Origin: Mycobacterium sp.
Lineage (GTDB): Bacteria > Actinomycetota > Actinomycetes > Mycobacteriales > Mycobacteriaceae
Direction of reading: 5' to 3'
NCBI GenBank assembly: GCA_020438845.1
Contig: JAGQTV010000041.1
Span: 1 to 36,354, forward strand
Length of the DNA stretch: 36,354 bases
Notes under the pieces: model-generated
Database searches by the model: none
What the model was told of the DNA's origin: nothing
Seen by the model: the letters and a program-made list of their open reading frames with translations, nothing else
Shown: positions 28,114-36,354 of the stretch, one piece after another
Layout of the letters: each line of letters opens with the position of its first letter
Numbering within the stretch: position 1 is the first letter of the stretch
Made by a program: the position numbers and the translations under genes

Positions 28114-30312
28114 TTACGGGTCGCGGGGCAGGCCGAGCAGTCGCTCGGCGATGATGTTGAGCTGTACCTCGGAGGTGCCGCCGTAGATCGTGGTGGCGCG
28201 GCTGGCCAGAAGGAACTCGGCCCATTTGCCCTGCGGTGTGTCCTCTTCCCAGATCGCGCCGTCGACACCGAACGAGGCGACGACGAACTCGGCGTACCCC
28301 TGCCCGGTCTTCATGGACAGCAGCTTTGAGATCGCCGCTGCCGGCATCGCGTCCCCGCCGGCGAGGGTCAGCAGGGTCGAGCGCATGTTCAGCAGCTTGG
28401 CCGCATGCCCCTCGGCGATCAGTTCCCCGGCCCGGTGGTGGCCGGTCTGGTCCAGATGCGCCCCGCTGACGAACTCGACGAAGCGGTCCAGGTTGGGCAG
28501 GAACCAGGGCTCGCTGCTCCCGATCGAAACCCGTTCGGCGGTAAGGGTATTGCGACTGACGTCCCAGCCCCGGTTCACTTCGCCCAGAACCATGTCGTCG
28601 GGTACGAACACGTCGTCGATGAAAACCGTGTTGAACAGCGCGTTGCCGGTCAGTTCCCGCAGTGGCTTGACTTCAACCCCGGGAGCCTTCATGTCCAGCA
28701 GGAAGTAGGTGATGCCATTGTGCTTCGGGGCGCTGGGGTCGGTGCGTGCCAGTAGCGCACCCCACTCGGAGAACTGAGCACCGGTGGTCCAGATCTTCTG
28801 TCCGGTGATCCGCCAACCACCGTCGACCTTGGTGGCCTTCGTGGTCAGGCTGGCCAGGTCCGAACCGGCACCGGGCTCGGAAAACAGTTGGCACCAGATC
28901 ATTTCGCCGCGGAAGGTGGGGGGCAGGAAACGCTGCTTCTGCTCGTCGGTCCCGTAAGCCGCGATCGAGGGGATAAGCCAGGCGGCGATACCCATGTTGG
29001 GACGTTTGACCCGACCTGTGCCGAACTCCTGGGCGATGATGATCTGCTCGACTGGCGAGGCGGCCCGACCCCAGGGCTTGGGCAAGTGGGGCTGCACCCA
29101 GCCACCCTCGGCGATCGCTGCCTTCCGCTCCTCGCGCGGGATTGCTTTCAGGGCTGCCACTTCGGAGCGGATCTCTTCGCGCAGTTTCTCAGTCTCCGGG
29201 TCGAGATCCACTTCGACGGCCCGCATTCCGGTGCTGGTGGCGGTGTCGAGCACCCGCTGCGGATACTCACCGGACCGACCGAATGCCGCGACCAGACCCA
29301 GTGTGCGCCGGTAGTAGATATTCGTGTCGTGCTCCCAGGTGAAGCCGATGCCACCGTGAACCTGAATGCAGTCCTGCGCACACTGCTGGGCGGCGACTGG
29401 GGCCAGCGTCGCGGCGACGGCAGCGGCGAATTCGTAGGCGGTTTCCTTGTTGTCCCAGTTGCATTCGGCCGCTTCGTCCAGCGCACGGGCGGCGTCCCAT
29501 ACCGCCGCTGTAGCCCGCTCGGTAGTGGCGATCATTCCGGCGCACTTGTGCTTGATGGCCTGGAACTGACCGATCGGCCGGCCGAACTGCTCGCGGATCT
29601 TCGCGTAGGCGGATGCGCTATCGGTGGCCCATCGGGCGATGCCAACGGCCTCGGCGGACAGCAACGTGATGATGATCGCCCGGGCCGCCGACTCGGGCAG
29701 GTTTGAGAGGAGCGCCCCGGTGGCCACTTCGACGGCATTGGCCCGCACGTGGGCGATCGGGCGCAGGGGGTCCACCGATCGCAGCGGTTCGATCTCCAGT
29801 TGCGTGGCGTCGAGAACCGCCCACTCCACGCCGCTCTCGATGGCGACTGGCAGCACCAGCACGGAAGCCTGCGGGGCGCAGGGAACCGATCGCGCCTCGC
29901 CACGGATCACCACTGTGTCGCCGTGTCGGGTTGCGGTGAGGTCGGACTCAAGGGCGAAGGCTGCGATGGCTGCACCGCAGGCCAGGGAAGACAAGATTTC
30001 GGTGCGGCGGTCGTTCGCCGAGATCAGCGCGCTGGCGATCGCTGACGGTACGAATGGACCCGGTGCTGCCGCGTAACCGAACTGCGCGATCACGATCGCC
30101 AGTTCAAGCAGGCCGGCGCCCTGCCCGTCCACTTCTTCGGCCAGGTGCAGGGCCTGCAGGCCTTGGTCGGCAGCCGCCTTCCAGTAGCGCGGCGGGTTCT
30201 CAGGCGGTGCCTCCAGCGCGGCGTGCAGGACCTCCGACGGTACCGACCGCTCCAGCAGGGACTTGACCGACTTGGCCAAGTCGATGTGTTCGGGATTGAT
30301 CGCGATGGGCAC
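28114..30312 (-). CDS. fadE6: Two-domain acyl-CoA dehydrogenase FadE6
   Basis: A 732-residue protein with two fused acyl-CoA dehydrogenase domains (about 1-365 and 370-732), like Rv0271c (recalled). The N-terminal domain ends in VHGGIGFTWEHDTNIYYRR, a form lacking catalytic Glu. The C-terminal domain has the FAD block QLFSEPGAGSDLASL and IWTTGAQ, but the usual YEGTSE is YGGTSE (Y710, G711), so the base is not at that position; E593 in TLTAERVSIG is the likely substitute. This resembles one chain holding the beta and alpha halves of mycobacterial heterotetrameric FadE enzymes. GTG at 30312 follows GGGAAGGCGG. 18 nt separate it from the MFS gene upstream. Confidence 0.88.
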   Translation of the reverse strand: MPIAINPEHIDLAKSVKSLLERSVPSEVLHAALEAPPENPPRYWKAAADQGLQALHLAEEVDGQGAGLLELAIVIAQFGYAAAPGPFVPSAIASALISANDRRTEILSSLACGAAIAAFALESDLTATRHGDTVVIRGEARSVPCAPQASVLVLPVAIESGVEWAVLDATQLEIEPLRSVDPLRPIAHVRANAVEVATGALLSNLPESAARAIIITLLSAEAVGIARWATDSASAYAKIREQFGRPIGQFQAIKHKCAGMIATTERATAAVWDAARALDEAAECNWDNKETAYEFAAAVAATLAPVAAQQCAQDCIQVHGGIGFTWEHDTNIYYRRTLGLVAAFGRSGEYPQRVLDTATSTGMRAVEVDLDPETEKLREEIRSEVAALKAIPREERKAAIAEGGWVQPHLPKPWGRAASPVEQIIIAQEFGTGRVKRPNMGIAAWLIPSIAAYGTDEQKQRFLPPTFRGEMIWCQLFSEPGAGSDLASLTTKATKVDGGWRITGQKIWTTGAQFSEWGALLARTDPSAPKHNGITYFLLDMKAPGVEVKPLRELTGNALFNTVFIDDVFVPDDMVLGEVNRGWDVSRNTLTAERVSIGSSEPWFLPNLDRFVEFVSGAHLDQTGHHRAGELIAEGHAAKLLNMRSTLLTLAGGDAMPAAAISKLLSMKTGQGYAEFVVASFGVDGAIWEEDTPQGKWAEFLLASRATTIYGGTSEVQLNIIAERLLGLPRDP

Positions 30313-32759: not shown

Positions 32760-32765
32760 TACTCT
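32760..32765 (+). promoter_or_regulatory. -10 hexamer TACTCT upstream of the sortase operon
   Basis: TACTCT lies 5 nt before ATG 32771, so transcription would begin at or next to that ATG. It fits the TANNNT rule but no -35 is evident. Confidence 0.45.
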
Positions 32766-32770
32766 GAGCT

Positions 32771-32803
32771 ATGACGCCTGCCGTGGCTTTCGAGCGAAGG
32801 TGA
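32771..32803 (+). CDS. Possible 10-codon leader peptide (MTPAVAFERR) before the sortase
   Basis: An ATG just after a -10 hexamer opens a reading frame of 10 codons whose TGA (32801-32803) overlaps the sortase GTG (32800-32802) as GTGA. Leaderless short upstream frames are common in mycobacteria (recalled). It would couple sortase translation to the leader. No conservation can be tested here and a chance frame is possible. Confidence 0.35.
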   Translation: MTPAVAFERR

Positions 32804-33474
32804 CTCCAAGTCGAGCAGCGTCGCGTCGTGCGCTGCAGTGGACCGGCGAGATCGTCATCACTCTCGGGGTGATTTTGGCGCTGTTCGTGGTCTATTTGCT
32901 GTGGTGGACCGGCGTGCAGACCGCCGGCGCGCAACGCGATCTGGGCGCTGAACTTGATCGCGCAGCCCAGAGTGCGGTAATTGCGCCCAGTGGAACGCAG
33001 GCGGGCGTCCCGTTGGTGGATCCAGCGCCTGCCGTCCCTGCAGTCGGCAAACCGTATGTGCGCATCCAGATTCCGACCCTGGGTGCCGACTGGAGTTGGA
33101 TCGTCGTGGAGGGCGTTGATTTGCCGCAGTTGGCGCTGGGCCCCGGGCACTATCCCGGCACCGCTGGTCCTGGTGAAGTCGGTAACTTCGCTGTCGCCGG
33201 GCACCGCGCGGGCCATGCTGCACCGTTCGAGAATCTCGATCGGCTCAAGCCCGGCGACGTCGTGAACTTCTCAGTCGGTGACGAGCACTGGTCTTACCGC
33301 GTCGAACGGTCCTTTCTGACCGAGCCCACCGATATCGGGGTCATTGATCCCGTGCCGGAACAACCGAATGCCGTCCCGACCAAACGACTGATGACGCTGA
33401 CGACATGTGATCCGAAGTACGGGGTTCGGTTTAAACGATTGATCGTGGTCGGCACTTTGATTGAGGAGCGCTGA
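32800..33474 (+). CDS. Class E sortase
   Basis: A membrane-anchored transpeptidase that cleaves an LPXTG-like signal (LAXTG for class E) and joins the protein to the cell wall. From GTG 32800 there are 224 residues: a short basic N-terminus, one transmembrane helix (about 17-36: EIVITLGVILALFVVYLLWW), then the sortase barrel. Catalytic residues are H135 in VAGHRAGHAAPF, C203 in TLTTCDP and R213 in RFKRLIV. The frame is open from 32668, but residues before GTG 32800 look non-coding and precede the -10. The stop overlaps the next gene by 1 nt. As I recall M. tuberculosis lacks a sortase of this kind, so its presence is notable. Confidence 0.88.
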   Translation: MTPSRAASRRALQWTGEIVITLGVILALFVVYLLWWTGVQTAGAQRDLGAELDRAAQSAVIAPSGTQAGVPLVDPAPAVPAVGKPYVRIQIPTLGADWSWIVVEGVDLPQLALGPGHYPGTAGPGEVGNFAVAGHRAGHAAPFENLDRLKPGDVVNFSVGDEHWSYRVERSFLTEPTDIGVIDPVPEQPNAVPTKRLMTLTTCDPKYGVRFKRLIVVGTLIEER

Positions 33475-33629
33475 TGTATGCCGCTTTGTGGGCGCTGTTG
33501 CCTGGGCCGACCCCGGTTCGCGCGTTGATCGCAGTGGTCCTGGTCGTGGCCGTGCTCGTCTTGTTGTTCACGGTGGTCTTTCCATGGGCGAGCCAGTTCG
33601 TGCCGGGCCAAGACGTCTCCGTTGGCTAG
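33474..33629 (+). CDS. 51-residue single-helix membrane protein, LPGP-type sortase-associated
   Basis: A small protein that standard calling would easily miss. Its ATG overlaps the sortase TGA by one base (TGATG), implying coupled translation. The sequence starts MYAALWALLPGPTPVR, has one hydrophobic helix (about 17-37) and ends FVPGQDVSVG, with the FPW turn in between. From memory, short proteins with the same W..LPGP...FPW...V.VG layout sit beside the class E sortase in the crgA-trpG region of other Actinobacteria; that family match should be tested by profile search. Possibly a sortase partner or membrane scaffold. Its end overlaps the next gene start (TTG at 33622) by 8 nt. Confidence 0.75.
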   Translation: MYAALWALLPGPTPVRALIAVVLVVAVLVLLFTVVFPWASQFVPGQDVSVG

Positions 33630-34485
33630 TTCCTCGCCAGGGCGTTCGCCCGCGCTTTGGGCGATGGTCGGCCTGATCGTCGGGTCAGCGGTGTGGCTCG
33701 GGTTTCGGTTGTTCGGGCCCGCCACGGTCCTGGTGGTACCGGTCGGCGTGGCGTTGCTGTGCTGGGGCGGCTACGCCGCATTGCTGACGGCGATCATGGT
33801 GAAACTGGCTCGCAGCGTTCGGCTGCCGATGTGGGCTGTGGCGTTGGCCGTGCTGTGGGGCGGATTGCCGGCGGCGGCCTTCGCCCAGATGATCGCCTTT
33901 GCGACACGTGACCGGATCGCCAACGCATTAGGTTCGTCGGGCCAGGCGTGGACCTCGGCGTTGGCGGCACCGATTCCCGAGGAGGTCGTCAAAGCAGCCG
34001 GTGTTGTGCTGCTGATGGTGGTGACCACGCCGGTCTTACGGAATCCGCTTTGTGGAATGGTGCTCGGGGCTCTGGTGGGAATCGGTTTCAACGCGGCCGA
34101 GGGGTTGGTGTTCAGCGTCTCGGAAATGGCGCGGTCGGGCTCGTGGGAGCCGCTGTGGTCCGATCTATTCGTTCGAGGCGTCCTCACTGGTCTAGTGACT
34201 CATTCAGGGCTGAGCGCCATCGTCGGTGCTGGTGTCGGATATCTGTGTGGCGCGGTGGACGTTCCTTGGGCGCGACGGGTCAATGTGCTCGGCGGACTGC
34301 TCGTCGCGGCCATCGTCCTGCACGCTCTCATCGACACGCCGCTCTTGGATGACTGGGGCGTCGGGGGCGTCATCGTCAAGCAGATACCGGTGGTCGTCGC
34401 GGTTTGGGTTGTGAGGGGGCGGGCCCGGTCAGAGGAGGTCCATCGCCAACGTTTGCGACGAATTCCAACAGCGCATACGGAGTAG
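33622..34485 (+). CDS. PrsW-family intramembrane metalloprotease
   Basis: A 287-residue polytopic protein with roughly 8 hydrophobic helices. PrsW-type signature residues are visible: E120-E121 in APIPEEVVKA, FNAAEGLVF with E160, H194 in GLVTHSGLSA and H234 in VLHALIDTPLL. PrsW proteases cut membrane-spanning substrates; the best known removes the anti-sigma factor RsiW in Bacillus. The TTG start at 33622 overlaps the stop of the microprotein by 8 nt; ATG at 33664 in frame is a possible alternative. The tail is basic and cytosolic. Its neighbours suggest that the repeat protein, with one transmembrane segment, is the substrate; this is inferred from position only. Confidence 0.84.
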   Translation: MASSSPGRSPALWAMVGLIVGSAVWLGFRLFGPATVLVVPVGVALLCWGGYAALLTAIMVKLARSVRLPMWAVALAVLWGGLPAAAFAQMIAFATRDRIANALGSSGQAWTSALAAPIPEEVVKAAGVVLLMVVTTPVLRNPLCGMVLGALVGIGFNAAEGLVFSVSEMARSGSWEPLWSDLFVRGVLTGLVTHSGLSAIVGAGVGYLCGAVDVPWARRVNVLGGLLVAAIVLHALIDTPLLDDWGVGGVIVKQIPVVVAVWVVRGRARSEEVHRQRLRRIPTAHTE

Positions 34486-34488
34486 AAT
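34483..34488 (+). promoter_or_regulatory. Possible internal -10, TAGAAT
   Basis: TAGAAT overlaps the PrsW stop codon and would start a transcript with about a 70-nt leader before ATG 34565. No convincing -35 is present at 17 bp. It may let the repeat protein be expressed more than its upstream genes. Confidence 0.3.
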
Positions 34489-34564
34489 CGTGACTTCGAA
34501 CTCGGCACATTCGGTGGTGCCCTGAGTGCAGCATCCGCTGATTTCGACCAAGTCAGGAGTTTCT

Positions 34565-36354
34565 ATGACCGCCGCGAATCGAATCAAGGTCGTTCTGCTC
34601 GACGCAGGGACCATTACTGACGGCGGGCTCGCTCGTTTGGCCCAATTCGCCTCCGAGGTCATCGTGGTCGGGGAACGCCGGCGAGGCCATGTCGTCGAGG
34701 GACTGCAGGCCAATGGCGTGAAAGTCAGTGTTGAAGAAGGCAAAGCCGACATCGAATCGGCCATACTCACCGCCGCGCGGTCCGGATCGGTCGTCGTCGT
34801 CACAGGACAACCTGCGAAGGCCGAGGCATTTGTGCGCAAGGCAGCGCACGGCGCCGCGAACGCAGTCGATCACGGTCTTCCTGCAGTCGGGGTGTACGTA
34901 ATTGGCGAGCACGAGACCGGGCCTGGAAAAGTGTTCACCGTCAGCGAGACGGGCGAGATTTCCGGCTATGAGTCGTTGTTTGCCGCTGGACTCGCCGAGC
35001 AGCTCGGCCAGGAAGTCGTCGCCGTCTCCCCACCGGGACGTATTCGCGCCGCTCGCACCGTTTCGGAGCATCCGTGGCTCGGCGGTGCCGAGAACGTCAG
35101 TGAACGGGCTCACGAAATCGCAGCGCTCGCAGGGGTGAAGTGGACGGAGCGGTCTGACCCGAGTCCGGTCAACTCCGTGATCGAGGAGTCGGGACTCGCC
35201 GCCGCAATCGTTGTCGGAGTGCTGGATGTGCCTTCCGGGCCCAAGTGGCTTGGCTCGCGACCGAAGGTGGACGGAGGTAGTCCGAGAGCCGCTGTCTCCC
35301 TGATCGACGACGCGCCATGCGACGTCATGGTGGTATTCGACGGCGTGCGCCTGACACACGAGAAGTTGTCTAAAGAGCAGGCTGCGGCAATTTTCGGGCT
35401 CGGGCTGGTCGCTACGGGCACGGCAGCTGCGGTCGCAACCCCGGCCAGCGCCATGCTCGGTCACGTCACCAAGTCGATCACGCAGCAGGCTCGTACCTAC
35501 CGCGCCGATATCGGTAACTCTGACAAAGATGATTCGTCGAGTTCTGCCGACACGAAGGACTCCAAGTCCAAGGACGGCGAACACAATTCGCGCGACACGA
35601 AGGGCTCGCAGAGCTCAGCCCATGGTGGCGCGACCAAGGCCAACAAGACGACCAAGACGACACTGTCCGCATCGGCGGGGTACGCCTCAACGCACTCAGC
35701 TCCCACTACCCGAAGCGCCCACACCGCACCACCACCGCCACCGCCACCGCCATCGCACAACAGCGGCGATGGGCTGCGTGACGGGATCGGTGGCCATGAC
35801 CCGTGGGGGCATTCGTGTGACCGTGGGCACTCAAGCCATTGCGATGACCCATCGCATTCCACCCCGACTTCTACCGGCACCGGCACATCTACGCATACTC
35901 AGCAGCCCACGGGCACCACCAACATCCAGCAGCCCACCGGCACCACCAACACCCAGCAGCCCACCGGCACCACCAACACCCATCTCACCCAGCCGCCAAC
36001 TCCGCATCCGGTGCCGGTAGCGACGCCGCATCAGGTGCCGCATCAGGTGCCGCATCAGGTGCCGCAGGCGACTCCGCAGGCCACGCCGAGCCCGATCGCG
36101 ACGCCGGTGCCGGGTGGGTTGACGCCGCATCAGGTGCCGCATCAGGTGCCGCATCAGGTGCCGCAGGCGACTCCGCAGGCGACGCCGACGCCGATCGCGA
36201 CGCCGGGTGGGTTGACGCCGCATCAGGTGCCGGACAAGACGCCGCCGTTGTTGCCGAACGAGACTCCGTATCTGGTGCCGACCGATCACGTGCCGACTCA
36301 GACCGGGCAGATCCCGGACAAGACGCCGCCGTTGTTGCCGAACGAGACTCCGTA
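34565..36354 (+). CDS. Repeat-tailed putative surface protein with internal transmembrane segment, C-terminus off window
   Basis: ATG at 34565 follows AGGAG by 5 nt; 596 codons are open to the window edge. Residues 1-270 look cytosolic and alpha/beta (KVVLLDAGTITDGG, SGSVVVVTGQPAKAEAF, AAIVVGVLDVPSG, DAPCDVMVVFDG), vaguely like two universal-stress-type folds, but I do not recognise them. Residues 273-297 form one hydrophobic segment ending in a signal-peptidase-like ASA. A Ser/Asp/Lys-rich linker follows, a run of eight prolines, and Cys-containing GHSCDRGHSSHCDD. Then come tandem repeats (QQPTGTTNT, PHQVP, DKTPPLLPNETP). This layout fits a wall-spanning stalk; the sortase signal, if any, is beyond the edge. 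N-terminal function is unknown. Confidence 0.8.
   Translation, partial: MTAANRIKVVLLDAGTITDGGLARLAQFASEVIVVGERRRGHVVEGLQANGVKVSVEEGKADIESAILTAARSGSVVVVTGQPAKAEAFVRKAAHGAANAVDHGLPAVGVYVIGEHETGPGKVFTVSETGEISGYESLFAAGLAEQLGQEVVAVSPPGRIRAARTVSEHPWLGGAENVSERAHEIAALAGVKWTERSDPSPVNSVIEESGLAAAIVVGVLDVPSGPKWLGSRPKVDGGSPRAAVSLIDDAPCDVMVVFDGVRLTHEKLSKEQAAAIFGLGLVATGTAAAVATPASAMLGHVTKSITQQARTYRADIGNSDKDDSSSSADTKDSKSKDGEHNSRDTKGSQSSAHGGATKANKTTKTTLSASAGYASTHSAPTTRSAHTAPPPPPPPPSHNSGDGLRDGIGGHDPWGHSCDRGHSSHCDDPSHSTPTSTGTGTSTHTQQPTGTTNIQQPTGTTNTQQPTGTTNTHLTQPPTPHPVPVATPHQVPHQVPHQVPQATPQATPSPIATPVPGGLTPHQVPHQVPHQVPQATPQATPTPIATPGGLTPHQVPDKTPPLLPNETPYLVPTDHVPTQTGQIPDKTPPLLPNETP
35900..35980 (+). repeat. Three tandem 27-bp repeats (QQPTGTTNT)
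   Basis: Three consecutive in-frame 27-bp units, each coding QQPTGTTN plus I or T. Copies two and three are identical and copy one differs by two bases, so the expansion looks recent. Confidence 0.9.
36023..36232 (+). repeat. Nested repeats: 12-bp PHQV units inside about 99-bp units
   Basis: A unit starting ACGCCGCATCAGGTG begins at 36023, 36122 and 36215, giving periods of 99 and 93 bp (the second lacks two codons). Each of the first two has the 12-bp CCGCATCAGGTG unit three times in tandem; the third is truncated after one. The near-identity of DNA suggests slippage or recombination. Confidence 0.9.
36231..36354 (+). repeat. 84-bp-period repeat (DKTPPLLPNETP), continuing past the edge
   Basis: A 40-bp segment from about 36231 recurs without visible change 84 bp later at the window's end, coding PDKTPPLLPNETP. 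Between the copies lies YLVPTDHVPTQTGQI. The array probably goes on beyond the window. Confidence 0.85.

Follow-up and report, generated by a model that had tools for sequence, protein, structure and literature searches.

In Bacillus subtilis, PrsW acts on an anti-sigma factor by regulated intramembrane proteolysis. For SrtE1, a class E sortase of Streptomyces coelicolor, the key residues have been named as His251, Cys320, Arg329 and Tyr229, and the tyrosine has been proposed to select the alanine of the LAXTG sorting motif (PMC5148588, available portion). In the streptococcal accessory Sec pathway, changing the core glycines G75, G79 and G80 of the surface protein GspB re-routes its export from the accessory path to the general Sec path (PMC5578698, available portion), and the first 20 residues after the GspB signal peptide are required for export by SecA2/SecY2 (PMC3297441, available portion). 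As for mycobacteria, the available part of a 2022 article on mycobacterial adhesion (PMC8875947) states that they seem to be without sortase genes and that no sortase activity had been reported to its authors' knowledge, its own sortase test being a search with S. aureus SrtA. Herein, we describe a locus that begins in a 36,354-nucleotide stretch of Mycobacterium sp. DNA (hereafter the window), which is the whole of contig C18 in a genome of 4.53 Mb and 118 contigs (G000). Its five genes, encoding a class E sortase (srtE), a microprotein with an LPGP motif, a PrsW-like protease, a repeat protein (gene 4) and a SecA-like ATPase, are moderately likely to form a surface-display module dedicated to the export and anchoring of one Pro/Thr-rich stalk protein.

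As summarized in Table 1, the first four genes all lay on the + strand, with overlaps of 1 and 8 nucleotides (nt) followed by a gap of 79 nt, which confirmed the positions and spacings given in an earlier sequence-only reading of this DNA. The same order was repeated in three other Mycobacterium genomes, namely G233 (L062), G308 (L063) and G282 (L018); L018, a contig of a metagenome-assembled genome, and the G282 contig are reverse complements of each other and form one record, which was counted once. The GTG start of the sortase gene was fixed by alignment with its ATG-started orthologues. In Nei-Gojobori counts across the four genomes, the ratio of nonsynonymous to synonymous difference proportions (pN/pS) was 0.06-0.17 in the microprotein, 0.11-0.27 in srtE, 0.11-0.39 in the N-terminal domain of gene 4 and 0.39-0.45 in the PrsW-like gene; across three genomes, it was 0.13-0.24 in SecA and 0.26-0.43 in the final 60 codons of gene 4. 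Judged by these comparisons, all the module genes behave as real genes under purifying selection, and the recurrence of the order in three further genomes together with the low pN/pS values indicated that the four-gene arrangement reflects more than chance.

The window sortase scored 210.7 bits against the class E family NF033747 (cut-off 160) and matched PF04203 with an E value of 5e-28, being the sole PF04203 match in its own genome, and the sortases of the three other module genomes scored 204-215 bits against NF033747. In the alignment with SrtE1 (5cuw), its His, Cys, Arg and Tyr residues matched H251, C320, R329 and Y229, and the class E tyrosine was thus present at the beta3/beta4 loop position. 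Since the catalytic His/Cys/Arg and the alanine-selecting tyrosine all align with those of SrtE1, there is little doubt that the window sortase is a class E member. This identity, as well as the PrsW-type identity of the third gene (90 bits against PF13367, PrsW-protease, with a gathering score of 23.5), had been proposed by the sequence-only reading and was borne out here. A putative LAHTG substrate, gene 4, is encoded in the same operon.

Gene 4 is truncated in the window because the contig ends at position 36354, an assembly break reached before any stop codon. The end of the window matched the end of another contig of the same genome, C69, over 131 bases (98%), and on the opposite strand of C69 the same repeat was found to run onward in the same frame, ending ...PPEGELAHTGADGVGVLAGMAASLIAAGSGLVLAGRRKKDNEDEEPDAAG. 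The gene-4 end on C69 reads ELAHTGADGVGVLAGMAASLIAAGSGLVLAGRRKK, in which ELAHTG is followed by a hydrophobic helix and GRRKK, and C69 very probably carries the remainder of window gene 4. In G233, gene 4 was complete on one contig (740 amino acids (aa) from ATG, with LAHTG at residue 696), and that of G308, likewise on one contig, was complete except for a 175-base run of N. Because both of these genomes hold gene 4, LAHTG and SecA on one contig, the link between C18 and C69 is mostly beyond doubt. The C-terminal end of the stalk is a sorting signal: GAPPEGELAHTGADGVGVLAG was invariant in the three C-termini (G000, G233 and G308), and in all three LAHTG was followed by a hydrophobic helix and a basic tail (GRRKK or GRRRE), the very combination that wall anchoring as envisaged in the sequence-only reading called for at the true C-terminus. 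The LPXTG_anchor profile TIGR01167 (cut-off 15.9) placed two of the three above its cut-off, with scores of 19.0 in G000 and 16.9 in G233. Since each of these three genomes contained a single strong match to the gene-4 C-terminus, with the next best at E values of 0.11-0.19, a single substrate with this type of C-terminus and flanks is apparently available to the sortase.

Directly 3' of gene 4, a fifth gene encoding a SecA of approximately 836-844 aa was revealed, at a spacing of 56 nt in G000, 57 nt in G233 and 48 nt in G308. SecA thus adjoined gene 4 in 3/3 loci reaching that far, the G282 contig ending earlier; the four genes put together by the sequence-only reading do occur together, but the set was incomplete. 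The module SecAs scored 959.5, 954.6 and 942.8 against the general SecA profile TIGR00963, above its cut-off of 800, and stayed below the cut-offs of mycobacterial SecA2 (TIGR04221; 577, 576 and 556 against 725) and of accessory secA2 (TIGR03714; 712, 717 and 685 against 930). By TIGR00963, three SecAs (SecA1, SecA2 and the module SecA) were counted in G000, G233 and G308, and two (SecA1 and SecA2) in the hand-picked controls G001, G004, G009 and G016; the count did not extend to the fragmented G282 with its unassigned SecA pieces. One SecY each, and no SecY2, was found in these seven genomes. A tree of 22 rows grouped the three module SecAs in one clade with support of 100/100. This clade lay at a great distance from SecA2 and was separate from the SecA1 clade (100/99) of Nocardia, Tsukamurella and Mycobacterium. 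Identity with the SecA1 proteins of the latter was 49-53%, and with SecA2 it was 34-38%. A search of 266 phylum genomes, with up to 3 candidates scored per genome, found no near relative of the module SecA (the module copy scored 1851 bits and the next match 1009). An origin by recent duplication of mycobacterial SecA1 was considered, and the tree gave no support to it. A second SecA1-type SecA was observed at G931:C46:18013-20502 (same class), with 887 bits to the module profile and an open frame of 1604 aa.

The distribution of the module was examined in samples of the genus, the order and the phylum, with up to 5 to 7 candidates scored per genome in these searches. Among 396 genus genomes, a class E sortase above the cut-off was present in 6, with weaker matches in 4 more; the gene-4 domain was present in 4, all of them among the 6 sortase-positive genomes, and in all 4 the microprotein and the PrsW-like gene adjoined the sortase. 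The conserved co-occurrence of the four families that the sequence-only reading would predict was therefore observed. In the order sample (397 genomes, evidently without G233, G282 and G308), a full gene-4 match was obtained in the own genome only, in addition to two weak partial ones, and a peptide scan of genome contigs with the window gene-4 protein alone returned L018 only. The phylum sample (396 genomes) contained one real distant relative and three weak matches. The relative belongs to a genome from a different class of this phylum (G785, L127:9987-11012); it has a gene-4-like domain and a membrane segment without a stalk and gave no Pfam match. Neither a sortase nor a PrsW-like or SecA gene was detected in the 19 kb surrounding it. 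As for the weak gene-4 matches, those in G157 and G768 were read by eye as an antisense-looking open reading frame and a MurC-like protein, respectively, and rejected, and that in G924 looked histidine-kinase-like by eye and was provisionally taken as chance (tblastn E 1.5e-5 in a five-locus search). The stretch of the G595 match gave no gene-4 match when it was searched, and G920 held another weak match.

As for the features of gene 4 itself, its window part had no Pfam or NCBIfam match up to an E value of 1. The N-terminal domain spans residues 1-272, and its AlphaFold model, built from two alignment rows, had a mean pLDDT of 43.6, with blocks at pLDDT 59-79 within residues 31-110, where strands and helices alternate. 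A Foldseek search of this model against the PDB returned nothing with an E value below 0.001, the best being a helicase domain at 5e-3. Because the two-row model is too weak and no PDB match fell below 0.001, no fold is claimed for the domain. A USP-type fold was considered and rejected, with no Pfam, NCBIfam or PDB-sequence support and no internal duplication by hhalign. The following residues 273-292, starting AAAIFGLGLVATGTAAAVA, are hydrophobic and form a hydropathy peak immediately before TPASA. Comparison of the orthologues identified core glycines in this internal membrane segment, two of which are invariant; TPASAML was invariant in 4/4 orthologues, and TPASAMLGH(V/L)TKSITQQARTYRADIG was identical in all four save one V/L position. 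Over the whole 319-residue stretch, identity to the window copy was 65-86%, the lowest (65%) being in G308. The stalk contains 17-20% Pro and 12-18% Thr across genomes, and its length and repeat unit vary. Within it, window positions 35765-35857 encode GDGLRDGIGGHD(P/A)WGHSCDRGHSSHCDDPSH, which is near-identical in G000 and G233 and, in the assembled sequence, carries the only two cysteines of their stalks; the stretch was not seen in the assembled G308 stalk, which has no cysteine.

The third gene encodes a protein with the motifs EEVVK, NAAEG, THSGL and LHALID at protein positions 120, 157, 193 and 233, conserved membrane Glu/His motifs that we take to be the catalytic ones. The microprotein was 88-96% identical to its copies in the three other module genomes and had no Pfam or NCBIfam match above the cut-off. 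As the sequence-only reading had it, the microprotein is part of the module in that it stands beside the sortase in 4/4 genomes; it is nevertheless not special to the module, since a 48% identical one lies between srtE and a trpG-like gene in the ordinary srtE locus of G354. Such srtE-adjacent microproteins are presumably widespread in ordinary loci.

Because the fifth gene encodes a SecA ATPase, the weight moves from the wall sensor of the sequence-only reading to dedicated export and anchoring. According to the proposed mechanism, the gene-4 N-terminal domain (~272 aa) would stay in the cytosol, followed by the internal signal-like membrane segment, the stalk and the C-terminal LAHTG, and a private SecA would push the stalk through the ordinary SecYEG channel, there being no second SecY. 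The class E sortase would then cut between Thr and Gly of LAHTG and join the stalk to peptidoglycan. The PrsW-like protease would most likely cut the internal membrane segment, or the remnant left after a signal peptidase cut between TPASA and the following Met, and its cut would free the N-terminal domain from the membrane. The most plausible role of the module SecA is that of an export motor for gene 4, and the core glycines together with the near-invariant 21-residue segment, which has the corresponding position, bear a likeness to the routing features of GspB. Any signalling role of the freed domain would be speculative.

Several observations weigh against this display mechanism. The position of SecA beside gene 4 is adjacency and no proof of dedication, and the module SecA clade stands on a long stem (1.66) in the tree. 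The charges flanking the internal membrane segment are such that the positive-inside rule does not favour the stalk-out orientation. The sorting signal of G308 scored just under the TIGR01167 cut-off (14.5 vs 15.9), and PF00746 gave 14.9 against a cut-off of 20 in G000 and no match in G233 and G308. The overlap between C18 and C69 is inexact and repetitive, comprising either 131 columns at 97.7% or 58 bases with 1 mismatch, and therefore does not fix the repeat number of G000 gene 4. The PrsW-like protein fell below the NF033739 PrsW equivalog cut-off (22 vs 225), its gene is the least constrained of the module by pN/pS, and relatives of this family occur outside the module as well, with matches in 11/61 genomes, all at most 33% identical; one such second PrsW-family protein, 31% identical to the module copy, is encoded in the own genome (G000:C107:40005-40841). 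Finally, the module is known from four genomes only.

In a fuller version of the display mechanism, which we put forward only tentatively, the private SecA would read the N-terminal domain, the glycine-bearing internal signal and the near-invariant segment behind it, export would proceed through the shared SecYEG, the sortase would anchor the stalk, and PrsW would free the domain, reporting each anchored stalk inside the cell. Similarly tentative is a narrower view, overlapping with the display mechanism, that the N-terminal domain only guides gene 4 to the private SecA and that PrsW cleans up the left-over membrane segment. The core glycines and the near-invariant segment after TPASA, features that direct GspB to the accessory path, are consistent with this view, as is the presence of SecA in 3/3 loci long enough to show it; the stalkless relative in G785, around which 19 kb revealed none of the sortase, PrsW-like and SecA genes, suggests, however, that the domain has a use of its own.

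It seems unlikely that the anchored stalk feels the state of the wall and that a signal then leads PrsW to free the N-terminal domain by its cut to act in the cytoplasm. The LAHTG anchor, the internal membrane segment and a PrsW-like protease do coincide in one operon, and the N-terminal domain is conserved at the identities given above. Yet the family, PDB-sequence and fold searches found no DNA-binding, enzymatic or sigma/anti-sigma feature in this domain; moreover, a tension link may not persist because of the AxA signal-peptidase-like site at the end of the internal segment, and SecA would be left unexplained. We regard it as improbable that an acquired sortase and its substrate merely came to lie beside an unrelated, spare SecA. 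Adjacency alone cannot prove function, and tniB/tniQ-type genes upstream of the module in G308 imply that the region may be mobile there, but the same five-gene order is found in G233, in G308 and across two contigs in G000 despite different flanks, it has been kept though the orthologues diverged to 58-65% (PrsW, gene 4) and 78% (SecA), and the 266 phylum genomes held no close relative of the module SecA. That C69 does not continue gene 4 at all, a suspicion to which the inexact and repetitive overlap lends itself, is scarcely credible given that gene 4, LAHTG and SecA stand in the same order on single contigs of G233 and G308 and that the reading frame runs on from C18 into C69.

Table 1. 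Features of the sortase-SecA locus in the window (positions on the 36,354-nucleotide stretch).
Feature	Position	Strand	Basis and remarks
Class E sortase, srtE	32800..33474	+	NF033747, PF04203, alignment to 5cuw; one N-terminal transmembrane helix
51-aa microprotein (MYAALWALLPGP...)	33474..33629	+	Single helix; 1 nt overlap with srtE
PrsW-like polytopic protease	33622..34485	+	PF13367, motifs, hydrophobic segments; TTG start, 8 nt overlap
Gene 4, putative sortase substrate, 5' part	34565..36354	+	ATG after CAGGAG; open to contig end, very probably continues on C69
Gene 4, N-terminal domain, ~272 aa, no known family	34565..35380	+	Pfam, NCBIfam and PDB sequences gave no convincing match
Gene 4, internal signal-like membrane segment	35381..35452	+	Core glycines, ends TPASA (AxA); hydropathy peak
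Gene 4, segment MLGH(V/L)TKSITQQARTYRADIG, 21 residues after the membrane segment	35453..35515	+	Orthologue comparison
Gene 4, Pro/Thr-rich repeat stalk, first part	35516..36354	+	18% Pro, 18% Thr; remainder very probably on C69

The module is flanked in G000 by a dehydrogenase gene and, on the C69 side, by a TetR-like gene, in G233 by enoyl-CoA hydratase-like and P450-like genes, and in G308 by a bestrophin-like gene as well as transposition genes, those without a family match being named by eye. Because these flanks differ among genomes, the module appears to be transferred or lost as one unit. In G308, tnsB-like, TniB and TniQ genes (PF09299, PF05621, PF06527) were identified upstream (L063:656-6092), with the bestrophin-like gene in between, and the module region may be mobile there. 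The idea that the module is cargo of such a tnsB/tniB/tniQ-type element was considered and gained little support, since there were no convincing end repeats in G308, no tRNA in the four stretches scanned and no transposition genes seen among the listed open reading frames of at least 250 aa around the G233 module. A plasmid or phage origin was also rejected: gene 4 had no match in plasmids, phages or viral contigs (the last searched with two peptide patterns), and the sortases and SecAs of the plasmid collection were all less than 60% identical. The presence of SecA1 and SecY of G308 on the 1.96 Mb contig of its module argues against contamination. In the own genome, a 732-aa acyl-CoA dehydrogenase-like protein with two such domains in one chain, as read by eye, was observed at window positions 28114-30312 (-).

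The two remaining sortases above the cut-off in the genus lie in different surroundings, with genes named by eye: that of G354 (L061) has the ordinary order DUF881/srtE/microprotein/trpG-like gene, and that of G358 (L064) lies in a phosphate-transport neighbourhood. Both loci resemble ordinary actinobacterial ones and are probably foreign contigs in those bins. The matches below the cut-off were in G094, G191, G292 and G390; tblastn in the G094, G191 and G390 stretches, with those of G292 and G358 left out, detected no microprotein or PrsW-like gene, a negative that is weak for the microprotein as that of G354 was also missed.

A class E sortase and a fitting putative LAXTG substrate are thus encoded in one operon, in a genus reported to be seemingly without sortase genes (PMC8875947, available portion). 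Our literature searches found no work joining the sortase, SecA and PrsW parts. If the proposed mechanism holds, no sortase system would have been described in Mycobacterium before this one, as far as these searches indicate, and a private SecA, a sortase and intramembrane proteolysis would be newly combined on one substrate. The extra SecA raises the question of how a SecA1-type ATPase that has no SecY of its own becomes specific to one substrate, and also that of the role of PrsW-type proteases outside anti-sigma signalling.

In comparison with known systems, the module resembles mycobacterial SecA2 in providing an extra SecA in a mycobacterium, but the two are only 34-38% identical and canonical SecA2 is present alongside the module SecA in the same genomes. 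The Pfam family PF13367 is common to the module protease and B. subtilis PrsW, whereas the former scored far under the equivalog cut-off and no sigma/anti-sigma gene was seen in the module. With Streptomyces SrtE1/SrtE2 and the chaplins, the module shares the sortase class, the catalytic residues, the tyrosine and the LAXTG signal (PMC5148588, available portion), and with the ordinary srtE locus of G354 a similar microprotein beside srtE; in contrast to the Streptomyces class E sortases, however, it has an operon-encoded stalk substrate, a private SecA and a PrsW-like gene, and its host is Mycobacterium. The streptococcal accessory Sec system (SecA2/SecY2, GspB) is like the module, as proposed here, in devoting an extra SecA to a long, low-complexity repeat surface protein and, as far as the available portions of PMC3297441 and PMC5578698 describe it, in the core glycines of the signal and the segment just after it. 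It differs in that the module SecA is not SecA2 by profile and is accompanied by no SecY2, that the module sortase is of class E and lies inside the operon, that a PrsW-like gene is added, and that the 90-residue signal peptide of GspB contrasts with an N-terminal domain of ~272 aa; Asp proteins and glycosyltransferases are not among the five module genes, no search having been made for them. Judged by sequence, the module is not a member of accessory Sec, because it has no SecA2 by profile and no SecY2, but it is predicted to work like a pair of accessory Sec and sortase.

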